10,599 nucleotides of DNA. Origin: Ruminococcus sp. Lineage in GTDB: Bacteria; Bacillota; Clostridia; Oscillospirales; Ruminococcaceae. The notes below the pieces were generated by a model. It was not told the DNA's origin. It saw only the letters and a list, made by a program, of their open reading frames with translations, and ran no database searches. Below are positions 1 through 3,062 of the stretch, piece by piece. Location: NCBI GenBank assembly GCA_003446315.1, contig DMBA01000290.1, positions 1-10,599 of the forward strand, given 5' to 3'. The first letter of the stretch is position 1; each line of letters begins with the position of its first letter. Position numbers and translations under genes: made by a program.

Positions 1-66
1 GGCCAAAGGGGGCAGACTGTAAATCTGTTGCGTCTCGCTTCGGTGGTTCGAATCCACCCTCTCCCA
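1..66 (+). tRNA. tRNA-Tyr (GUA), 5' truncated by the window edge
   Basis: This is the 3' four-fifths of a tyrosine tRNA. Its anticodon GTA lies at 19-21 inside the loop CTGTAAA. It has the long class II variable arm (GCG-TCT-CGC) and a T-arm GGTGG-TTCGAAT-CCACC, followed by the acceptor strand CTCTCCC and discriminator A at 66. All 66 bases match the second copy (149-214) exactly. The 5' acceptor and most of the D-arm lie before the window. No CCA is encoded: ATTCC follows instead, so CCA must be added after transcription. Confidence 0.95.
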
Positions 67-1364: not shown

Positions 1365-2345
1365 ATGACCACAAAAGAGCGCGTTCTCGAACAATTGGAA
1401 CAGCAGCGCGGCAAAAGCATCTCCGGAGCAAAACTTGCAGAGCAGCTTTCGCTCTCCCGCAATGCCGTCTGGAAGGCGATCACAGCGCTGCGTACAGAAG
1501 GTTATCAGATCCAAGCCGTGACCAATAAAGGCTATTGTCTTGCGCCGGAAAATGATATTCTCTCCGTGCAGGGCATTCTCCCCTTTTTGTCGCCCGATGC
1601 TGCGAAATATGCAAACCAGATCTCTGTCTTCGATTCGCTGCCTTCAACCAATCAAAAAGCAAAGGAATACGCCGTTTCCGGTGCTGCACACGGAACTGTG
1701 GTCATCGCGGAAACGCAGACCGCCGGCCGCGGCAGATATGACAGGTCTTTCTTTTCGCCGAACGGCGGCTTATATCTCAGCATCGTGCTGCATCCTGCGC
1801 ACCTGCCCTTTACGCATATCACGGCTGTGACTGCCTTTGCTGCAAATGCCGTCTGCGAAACGATCGAGGCACTTTCCGACCGGAAACCTGCGGTCAAATG
1901 GGTCAATGATGTGCTGATTGGCGGCAAAAAAGTCTGCGGAATCCTGACAGAAGCCGTCACCGATTTTGAAAGCGGCGGATTAAGCTGGATCGTGCTCGGC
2001 ATCGGCATCAATCTCACCGCACAGTTTCCGCCGGAGCTGCAAAAGATCGCAGGTGCTGTGTTTCCGGATGGTGCACCTGCCGGCTGCCGGAATCAGTTTG
2101 CCGCTTCGCTCATCAACAAGCTCCTCACAGACAGCGCCATACCGGATGAACCCGCGATTTTTGCCGCATACCGGGCGCGTTTGCTGCTGCCGGAAGCAGA
2201 GATCACCGTGCAGCAGGGAGATGTCGCTTATCCCGCTTCTGCGGTCGGGATCAACGACTGCGGCCATCTCATCGTGCGCCTGCGGGACGGTTCACAGCGC
2301 ATCCTGACATCCGGAGAGATCCGTCTGCCCTACCCTTCTGCATAA
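1365..2345 (+). CDS. birA: Bifunctional biotin-protein ligase / biotin operon repressor BirA
   Basis: This 326-residue protein attaches biotin to the biotin carrier domains of carboxylases through biotinyl-5'-AMP. In two-domain forms like this one, it also represses biotin genes when biotin is plentiful. An N-terminal winged helix (about 1-60) contains the HTH stretch ISGAKLAEQLSLSRNAVWKA. The catalytic domain carries the nucleotide/biotin loop GRGRYDR (121-127), KWVND (178-182), KVCGILTE (189-196) with the active-site Lys, and GIGINL (212-217). A C-terminal SH3-like domain spans about 275-326. The ATG at 1365 is chosen because AAAGGAG (1351-1357) lies 7 nt upstream. An in-frame ATG at 1272 would overlap the deacetylase gene and its terminator. 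No promoter is evident in the 34 nt between that terminator and the start codon. The downstream neighbour is bioY, preceded by a BirA-like operator, which fits the regulatory role of the HTH domain. Confidence 0.95.
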   Translation: MTTKERVLEQLEQQRGKSISGAKLAEQLSLSRNAVWKAITALRTEGYQIQAVTNKGYCLAPENDILSVQGILPFLSPDAAKYANQISVFDSLPSTNQKAKEYAVSGAAHGTVVIAETQTAGRGRYDRSFFSPNGGLYLSIVLHPAHLPFTHITAVTAFAANAVCETIEALSDRKPAVKWVNDVLIGGKKVCGILTEAVTDFESGGLSWIVLGIGINLTAQFPPELQKIAGAVFPDGAPAGCRNQFAASLINKLLTDSAIPDEPAIFAAYRARLLLPEAEITVQQGDVAYPASAVGINDCGHLIVRLRDGSQRILTSGEIRLPYPSA

Positions 2346-2352
2346 TAAGACT

Positions 2353-2404
2353 CGCCTGATTGTCAACTTTTTATCATCATGCAGTTGACAATCAGGCGGT
2401 TTTG
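2353..2404 (+). terminator. Long-stem terminator behind birA, containing the BirA-like operator
   Basis: A perfect 16-bp stem (2353-2368 with 2383-2398) encloses a 14-nt loop and is followed by GTTTTG. The hairpin begins 7 nt after the birA stop codon. The T-run is short, so termination may be incomplete. The same inverted repeat contains the proposed operator and the bioY -35 box. Confidence 0.7.
2360..2391. promoter_or_regulatory. Probable BirA operator upstream of bioY
   Basis: TTGTCAAC (2360-2367) and GTTGACAA (2384-2391) form a perfect interrupted palindrome with a 16-bp spacer. Known BirA sites have the form TTGTTAAC or TTGTAAAC, then 14-16 bp, then the complement, so each arm here differs at one or two positions. 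The right arm covers the -35 hexamer of the bioY promoter, so bound BirA would block RNA polymerase. It sits directly between birA and bioY. Identification rests on the pattern and context. Confidence 0.75.
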
Positions 2405-2413
2405 TGTTATAAT
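2385..2413 (+). promoter_or_regulatory. Consensus promoter of bioY
   Basis: TTGACA (2385-2390) and TATAAT (2408-2413) are 17 bp apart, a perfect sigma-A match. Transcription would start near 2420, giving a leader of about 58 nt. A further lone TTGTCAA half-site lies at 2418-2424, at the expected start of transcription. The heptamer ATGCATG occurs twice in the leader (2428-2434 and 2439-2445). Confidence 0.85.
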
Positions 2414-2477
2414 AGGGTTGTCAAAAAATGCATGCTGTATGCATGTATCCGCTTTATATATAGTATAGGAGCACACT

Positions 2478-3062
2478 ATGGAACAAACCATCCGCGCAAA
2501 CAAACATTTCCGGACAATTGATCTGACATACATAGCGATCGGGGCTGCATTGATCGCTGTTTGCTCATGGATCAGCATACCAATGTCTGTCCCGTTCACG
2601 CTGCAAACATTCGCCGTCTTCTTCCTGTTGATGCTGCTCGGCGGAAAACGCGGGACATGCGCGGTTCTGGTCTATATTCTGCTGGGCGCGGCAGGCGTAC
2701 CGGTCTTCTCCGGTTTTTCATCCGGCATCGGCGTCCTGCTCGGCAGTACCGGCGGTTATATTCTCGGTTTCCTGCTGACCGGCTTGATCTACCTCGGATG
2801 CACAAAGCTGTTCGGCGAAAAACTGCCCGTCATGCTGACAGCGCTGGTTCTGGGACTCGCTGTTTGTTATACCTTCGGAACTGCGTGGTTTTTGGTCGTC
2901 TATAACCGTGCAAATGATGCCATCGGCATCGGAAAAGCGCTCTCATGGTGTGTGATCCCGTTTCTAATCCCCGATCTGGTCAAAATGGCTTTGGCTTGCC
3001 TGCTCGCCAACCGGATCAAGCCGTTTCTCTCCAAATCCGGCATCGCTGCCGATACGCACTGA
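2478..3062 (+). CDS. bioY: Biotin transporter substrate-binding component BioY
   Basis: This 194-residue integral membrane protein is very hydrophobic, with about six predicted membrane segments. It binds biotin as the S-component of an ECF-type vitamin importer. BioY hallmarks are present: VPFTLQTFAVF (38-48), GGKRGT (55-60), the GAAGVPVFSGFSSG loop (70-83), STGGYILGF (90-98), and a late charged IPDLVKM segment (164-170). Length matches the family (about 180-200 residues). The ATG at 2478 has AGGAG at 2467-2471, 6 nt upstream. No EcfA/EcfT genes are adjacent. It therefore probably uses a shared energising module encoded elsewhere, as group II ECF transporters do, or works alone. The upstream operator-promoter indicates BirA-controlled expression: high when biotin is scarce. 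Confidence 0.95.
   Translation: MEQTIRANKHFRTIDLTYIAIGAALIAVCSWISIPMSVPFTLQTFAVFFLLMLLGGKRGTCAVLVYILLGAAGVPVFSGFSSGIGVLLGSTGGYILGFLLTGLIYLGCTKLFGEKLPVMLTALVLGLAVCYTFGTAWFLVVYNRANDAIGIGKALSWCVIPFLIPDLVKMALACLLANRIKPFLSKSGIAADTH

Follow-up and report, generated by a model that had tools for sequence, protein, structure and literature searches.

Operators of two-domain biotin protein ligase/repressors (BirA) are interrupted palindromes, and the bioO-type consensus is given in the available portion of PMC545781 as TTGTAAACC-N14/15-GGTTTACAA. As stated in the accessible parts of the respective papers, BirA of S. aureus represses bioY in a biotin-dependent manner (PMC6391492), BirA of B. subtilis needs both biotin and ATP to bind its operators (PMC4016012), and the bioY1 site of L. 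lactis is described as overlapping the -10 to -35 region (PMC4861984). Within these same parts no terminator role is described for BirA sites, the word terminator being absent from those of PMC4861984 and PMC4016012, and both uses of the word in the available portion of PMC545781 concern thiamine riboswitches, not BirA. The nearest idea found is provided by the DNA-uptake-signal terminators of Neisseria and Pasteurellaceae, in which, according to the accessible text of PMC1852404, a complementary signal pair forms the terminator stem. No report of a repressor operator doubling as a terminator was recognised from titles and the starts of abstracts in the open-access literature, a weak negative with subscription papers outside its scope. 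Intrinsic terminators usually have a loop of about 3-8 nt, and in the E. coli frd/ampC overlap a terminator lies in the promoter-leader region of the next gene; we know of no repressor operator within that hairpin.

In the window (the whole stretch of DNA analysed, 10,599 nt), birA and bioY follow one another on the plus strand with a gap of 132 nt (Table 1). S. aureus BirA structures align with residues 6-319 of the window BirA, nearly end to end (E about 1e-34). Beginning 7 nt past the birA stop codon lies a perfect 16-bp inverted repeat with a 14-nt loop, the longest in the window among perfect inverted repeats with a 3-20-nt loop, of which only one other (1299-1327) reaches at least 11 bp. 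A sequence-only reading of this DNA had described the stem as containing TTGTCAAC-N16-GTTGACAA and its right arm as supplying the -35 box of a bioY promoter with 17-bp spacing, and inspection together with software tools recovers exactly these features. The inner core of the repeat (2360-2391) matches the BirA-operator pattern, TTGTNAAC and GTTNACAA separated by 14-18 nt, with a gap of 16; its left half-site follows the birA stop codon at a distance of 14 nt, its right half-site overlaps the bioY -35 box, and it ends 86 nt before the bioY start. Together with a 17-bp spacer, the -35 and -10 boxes form a sigma-A promoter (2385-2413) with 12/12 consensus bases. The RNA of 2345-2412 folds at -32 kcal/mol (z -8.5; 0/200 shuffles as good), and the stem is followed by a modest, interrupted U-tract, GUUUUGUGUU, with four U's in a row, so placed that the birA RNA is predicted to end at about 2403-2408. 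The 14-nt loop exceeds the usual range of intrinsic terminators, and the hairpin is absent from the output of a simple terminator scan because that scan is limited to short loops (3-8 nt). Thus read, one palindrome appears to end the birA transcript, bind the biotin repressor and supply part of the bioY promoter, and we consider it probable, on comparative sequence evidence, that operator, terminator and promoter are fused in this element.

Table 1. Features of the birA-bioY junction and its flanking genes, in window coordinates.
Feature	Positions	Strand	Description
birA	1365..2345	+	Two-domain biotin protein ligase/repressor, 326 aa; Pfam HTH_11 + BPL_LplA_LipB + BPL_C
Left arm of inverted repeat	2353..2368	+	Outer part CGCCTGA (2353-2359) extends beyond the operator core; outer arm covaries in relatives
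Left putative BirA half-site TTGTCAAC	2360..2367	+	
Right arm of inverted repeat	2383..2398	+	Outer part TCAGGCG (2392-2398) sits in the promoter spacer
Right putative BirA half-site GTTGACAA	2384..2391	+	
-35 box TTGACA	2385..2390	+	Within the right half-site
T-tract TTTTGT of the proposed terminator	2400..2405	+	Inside the -35/-10 spacer; read from sequence
-10 box TATAAT of the bioY promoter	2408..2413	+	Preceded by TG (extended -10)
Lone half-site-like TTGTCAA	2418..2424	+	Located at the predicted start of transcription; probably not a component of the system
bioY	2478..3062	+	Substrate-binding subunit of biotin transporter, 194 aa; Pfam PF02632, E 1.3e-40

The window site resembles bioO-type operators, as far as the available portion of PMC545781 describes them, in its interrupted palindrome, arms, spacing, downstream biotin gene and two-domain BirA, and has the same form as the Geobacter sites listed there (TTGTcAACC-N14-aGTTgACAA); it differs in that its palindrome is lengthened into a terminator-like hairpin of the preceding gene. 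The S. aureus, L. lactis and B. subtilis sites, in the accessible parts of their reports, are likewise BirA operators, located in S. aureus and L. lactis at bioY promoters. With intrinsic terminators the window hairpin shares a GC-containing stem that closely follows a stop codon and has U's after it, but it departs from them in its 14-nt loop, in being shared with an operator and in having its T-tract inside a promoter spacer. The uptake-signal terminators, in the part of their description at hand, likewise reuse a DNA-level sequence for a terminator stem, yet that sequence is an uptake signal, not a repressor operator or a -35 box. At frd/ampC, as at the window junction, compact neighbouring genes share terminator and promoter DNA. 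On the other side of birA, a terminator-like hairpin with T6 (1299-1327, 11-bp perfect stem, -17.4 kcal/mol) ends about 30 nt 5' of birA, and inspection by eye of the stretch from this hairpin to the gene (1299-1364) shows no evident promoter. Farther upstream, ARAGORN places a tRNA-Tyr gene at 133-217, and window positions 1-65, which get no such call, resemble, by eye, part of a second copy.

The sequence-only reading had taken the palindrome for a BirA operator, to be sought upstream of other bioY genes. We surveyed bioY loci with one genome per species, using the best 80 of 439 confirmed loci, 79 of which have at least 120 nt upstream. An operator with at most one mismatch is found within 450 nt upstream of 49 of these 79, compared with 0/74 downstream regions and 2/1580 shuffles from the same best 80 of 439. 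At least four of the 30 loci of this set that lack a near operator carry one farther upstream, either 5' of a birA that precedes bioY (L002, L007 and L010) or 5' of an inserted gene (L015). We took the genus of the closest relatives found (30 genomes) as the genus of the window; its two-domain BirA proteins are 54-61% identical to that of the window. A relaxed operator pattern matches in 10 of these genomes, once each. Nine of the 10 operators sit between a two-domain birA and bioY, and the tenth (G421, L226) precedes bioY on a contig that ends 15 nt upstream of the site, leaving birA out of view. Two-domain BirA is present in nine of the 30 genomes, all nine of which carry the operator, versus one of the 21 others; the probability of such a nine-in-ten overlap by chance is C(10,9)/C(30,9) = 7e-7, ignoring kinship. 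Seventeen of the 20 genus genomes without the operator still have bioY. The palindrome is thus conserved at other bioY genes, both in the best 80 of 439 loci and in the genus, and the sequence comparisons lend good support to its role as a BirA operator. The relaxed pattern finds no second operator in the 10 genus genomes and therefore suggests no carboxylase or bioB target there.

Beyond the genus, the operator is associated with two-domain BirA more loosely and far from one-to-one. Among 148 genomes of the wider family searched for both, the exact operator occurs in 38 of 88 with a BirA N-terminal-domain match versus nine of 60 without (p 0.0003); the 50 of 88 that have the domain and no exact operator match may be explained in part by the exact-pattern search and by incomplete genomes. 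Locus L086 is one with a two-domain BirA and no operator after it. In the family of the closest relative the operator alone matches 113/396 genomes, versus 18 for the control, and in a class-wide search the operator plus a -10 box matches 121/391 genomes, versus three for the reversed control pattern. Several further arrangements were observed. Seven of the nine genus genomes with two-domain BirA carry a second match without the N-terminal domain, and in genomes with such a second match the two-domain protein may be mainly a repressor. L142 (1501-1591) has two complete operators in tandem before bioY, 59 nt apart from start to start. In seven of the genomes listed by the class-wide search (G644:C1:872689-872764, G448, G606, G687, G768, G645 and G533) a single operator is matched on either strand and flanked by a -10 box at both ends, so that its two arms could serve a pair of divergent promoters, one arm as the -35 box of each.

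The arms differ in how freely their letters vary. In the 49 bioY sites identified without requiring a promoter (among the best 80 of 439 loci), G is the fourth base of the right arm in 47, and its counterpart, the fifth base of the left arm, is C in 17, T in 16 and A in 16; in 233 promoter-filtered sites the left-arm base is C in 123, A in 65 and T in 45. The simplest reading of this base usage is that the right arm would be held by the -35 box and the left arm free. The spacing between the -35 and -10 boxes is 17 bp in 92 of 104 related sites (16-18 allowed, ties to 16) and in 204 of the 233 sites of the larger set (ties to 17). Together with the right-arm G in 47/49 sites of the best 80 of 439 loci, these counts bear out the -35 role assigned to the right arm. 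The C in the left arm had also been proposed to mark a lineage-specific operator form. We reject this proposal, as C, T and A are nearly equal in the 49 sites (best 80 of 439) and C is the commonest letter in the 233, Geobacter sites with the same C/G letters appear in Table 1 of PMC545781 (in the portion available), and the right-arm G fits the -35 box.

For the proposed terminator, we compared the outer arms in an alignment of 10 genus sequences, from which L085 (the same place as L015) was first left out. In the outer 8-bp stem 95% of cells are paired, versus 68.9% in shuffled and 24-40% in slid controls, and two-sided changes account for 19 cells versus 6.5 expected; with L085 as the 11th sequence pairing is 90.9% versus 64.9% shuffled. 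Seven of the eight outer pairs vary across the genus, and the inner core is invariant except at left position 7, where the window, L206 and L085 have A and the remaining sequences have C. G.U cells outnumber C.A cells in the genus outer stem (12 versus 2, p 0.006, uncorrected for kinship), an excess that points to selection on the birA-sense RNA; outside the genus the same comparison is not significant (19 versus 12, against a background of 144 to 135). TTTGTG precedes the -10 box in 10 of the 11 aligned sequences of the genus, the exception being L202 with TCTGTG. Since L085 has TTTGTG in spite of its missing extension, termination alone cannot account for this stretch, which may serve the promoter too.

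The predicted folds are in line with these pairings. The window, L199, L200 and L206 fold at -30.5 to -36.1 kcal/mol (the three relatives alone at -31.9 to -36.1), some relatives folding the loop further, as L206 does to leave a 6-nt loop, and L202, with an interrupted outer stem, has a weaker fold of -18.3. In L085, without the extension, the operator hairpin reaches only -11.5 (z -1.5), and just 5' of it lies a separate hairpin of -24.1 that ends in T's; judged from sequence, this separate hairpin in place of the extended stem is a natural swap. We scored a stem as extended when 8/9 outer positions are paired, or five contiguous ones, with at least two G-C pairs; nine of the 11 genus sequences, including the window, have such a stem, and L202 and L015/L085 do not. 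These comparisons support, short of proof, the earlier proposal that the hairpin is the birA terminator; the support comes from the paired outer-arm changes, the folds and the L085 swap as well as from extended stems across the class.

For the class, 233 distinct sites were pooled from the bioY loci, the family and genus hits and the class-wide hits (123 loci taken, of which 119 gave a site), the family and class hits being taken in part; each included site has an operator with an exact right arm GTTGACAA and a -10 box, and neighbours were classified from codon-scored gene calls. Extended stems occur at 43 of the 233 sites, whereas re-pairing the left and right flanks 1000 times gives 2.0 on average and at most 7. 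When the genus sites and the window are set aside (L015 kept), 34 of 223 are extended versus 1.6 expected, and in the class-wide sample alone 17 of 119. Extension varies with the neighbour: it is found at 28/76 sites with a co-directional stop codon at most 60 nt away, 7/38 with one at 61-200 nt, 1/19 beyond 200 nt, 5/88 with a divergent neighbour, 1/11 with no gene called and 1/1 labelled as inside a gene, a label (L164) that we take for a start-site error in the gene call. The contrast between close co-directional and divergent sites stands without the genus and the window (20/67 versus 5/88, p 1e-4). When related sites are collapsed by identity of the downstream protein, the median p is 0.0001 at 90% and 0.001 at 70%, and at 60% and 50% it is 0.08 and 0.14, the direction being kept and the contrast weaker.

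Other properties of the extended sites are also consistent with termination. The 10 nt around the stem end hold at least five T's at 36/43 extended versus 101/190 other sites. L164 and L195, which have homologous upstream genes, differ in their outer arms, and both are fully paired through compensatory changes. The 42 extended sites with a called neighbour span 24 upstream gene families, or 19 without the five divergent ones. Nineteen upstream genes of non-birA extended sites were put to Pfam, three of them giving no hit; the families found include UDP-GlcNAc epimerase, YitT, alpha/beta hydrolase, TatD, polysaccharide deacetylase, glutamate-type dehydrogenase, thiamine phosphate synthase and ribosomal protein L7/L12. 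On these sequence data we rate the proposed fusion of operator, terminator and promoter as recurrent in Clostridia; 17 of the 119 class-wide BirA operator-promoters look built as all three in one. Forty-eight of the 76 close co-directional sites are unextended, and the scan finds a separate terminator in only six of these, which indicates that many lineages do without. We also considered whether an extended stem and a separate terminator exclude one another, and dropped this idea as only weakly seen: separate terminators accompany 2/28 extended versus 6/48 other sites at up to 60 nt, and 0/7 versus 7/31 at 61-200 nt.

Were the palindrome operator and promoter only, its outer arms would be longer BirA recognition DNA and its hairpin a by-product, as any palindromic operator yields some hairpin. 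That extension at divergent sites also exceeds re-paired flanks (0.46 expected) agrees with such an origin. However, a protein site would conserve letters, whereas here most outer pairs vary around a near-invariant core; the retained G.U pairs, the commoner extension after close co-directional genes and the separate terminator of L085 further argue against it, and we regard this explanation as quite improbable. An accidental overlap of a birA terminator with a bioY promoter in one genome, for which the short intergenic space is the natural argument, is scarcely credible in view of the extended stems in nine of 11 genus sequences and of the 24 upstream gene families (19 without the divergent neighbours) at extended sites across Clostridia.

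Alternatively, birA and bioY could share read-through transcription, with the hairpin acting as an attenuator that sets the amount passing. The two genes are co-directional with a gap of only 132 nt, and the modest U-tract makes read-through plausible. Yet bioY has its own consensus promoter, which overlaps and follows the hairpin, the one competing pairing observed, a 7-bp TTGACAA/TTGTCAA match, is far weaker than the 16-bp stem, and no Rfam family reaches its gathering score at the junction, making attenuation very improbable in our judgement.

The fused operator, terminator and promoter would work on two levels, for which we infer BirA binding, termination and the purpose of the fusion as follows. 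On DNA, the inner palindrome would serve the two-domain BirA as its operator; with abundant biotin, BirA carrying biotinyl-AMP would cover the bioY -35 box and switch biotin uptake off. On RNA, this palindrome, which a GC-rich arm extends on its outer side, would fold into a hairpin followed by U's and terminate birA transcription within the spacer of the bioY promoter, about 12-17 nt short of the predicted bioY start. The likely purpose would be to stop birA transcription from entering bioY and bypassing the repressor where the gap is too short for two elements. Four of eight relatives viewed (L199, L201, L204 and L205) have, by eye, a promoter-like sequence just before birA, which, with the lack of a second operator under the relaxed pattern in the genus, fits birA being outside the control of this operator. 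A protein-bound palindrome could in this manner become a terminator by altering only the unconstrained outer arms and the promoter spacer. Annotation usually treats operators, promoters and terminators as distinct elements, and here one palindrome seems to serve all three; the junction also offers a ready test bed for the way in which termination, initiation and the binding of a repressor interfere within one stretch of 60 bp.

A more far-reaching proposal, which we deem unlikely, is that the fusion is a feedback device, evolved repeatedly in Clostridia, in which repressor level, termination and transporter expression form one coupled switch. If so, a polymerase finishing birA would cross the BirA operator and stop atop the bioY promoter, and bound BirA would roadblock the end of its own gene, shifting birA RNA 3' ends and BirA level with biotin. 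With the operator empty, a polymerase released at the U-tract could pass directly to the bioY promoter; that a released polymerase can reinitiate has been shown for the E. coli enzyme, according to the accessible part of PMC6978380.

The sequence-only reading had also pointed to a lone TTGTCAA at the expected start of bioY transcription. The sequence is indeed present; a conserved position or orientation is not. Half-site-like matches near the start occur at 3/10 genus and window sites (the window, L204 and L226), 12/222 others and 9/233 control windows, and those three, a noted excess for the genus, differ in offset and orientation. Given no conserved geometry among these sites, we set this half-site aside as a component of the system and regard it as probably due to chance. 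Between the operator and bioY, most genus members with the operator have a DUF1284 gene, namely L015 (4604-5014), L199-L201, L203-L206 and L226, identified as PF06935 for L015 and by eye for the others; it is absent from the window and L202. A connection between DUF1284 and biotin uptake may merit attention.
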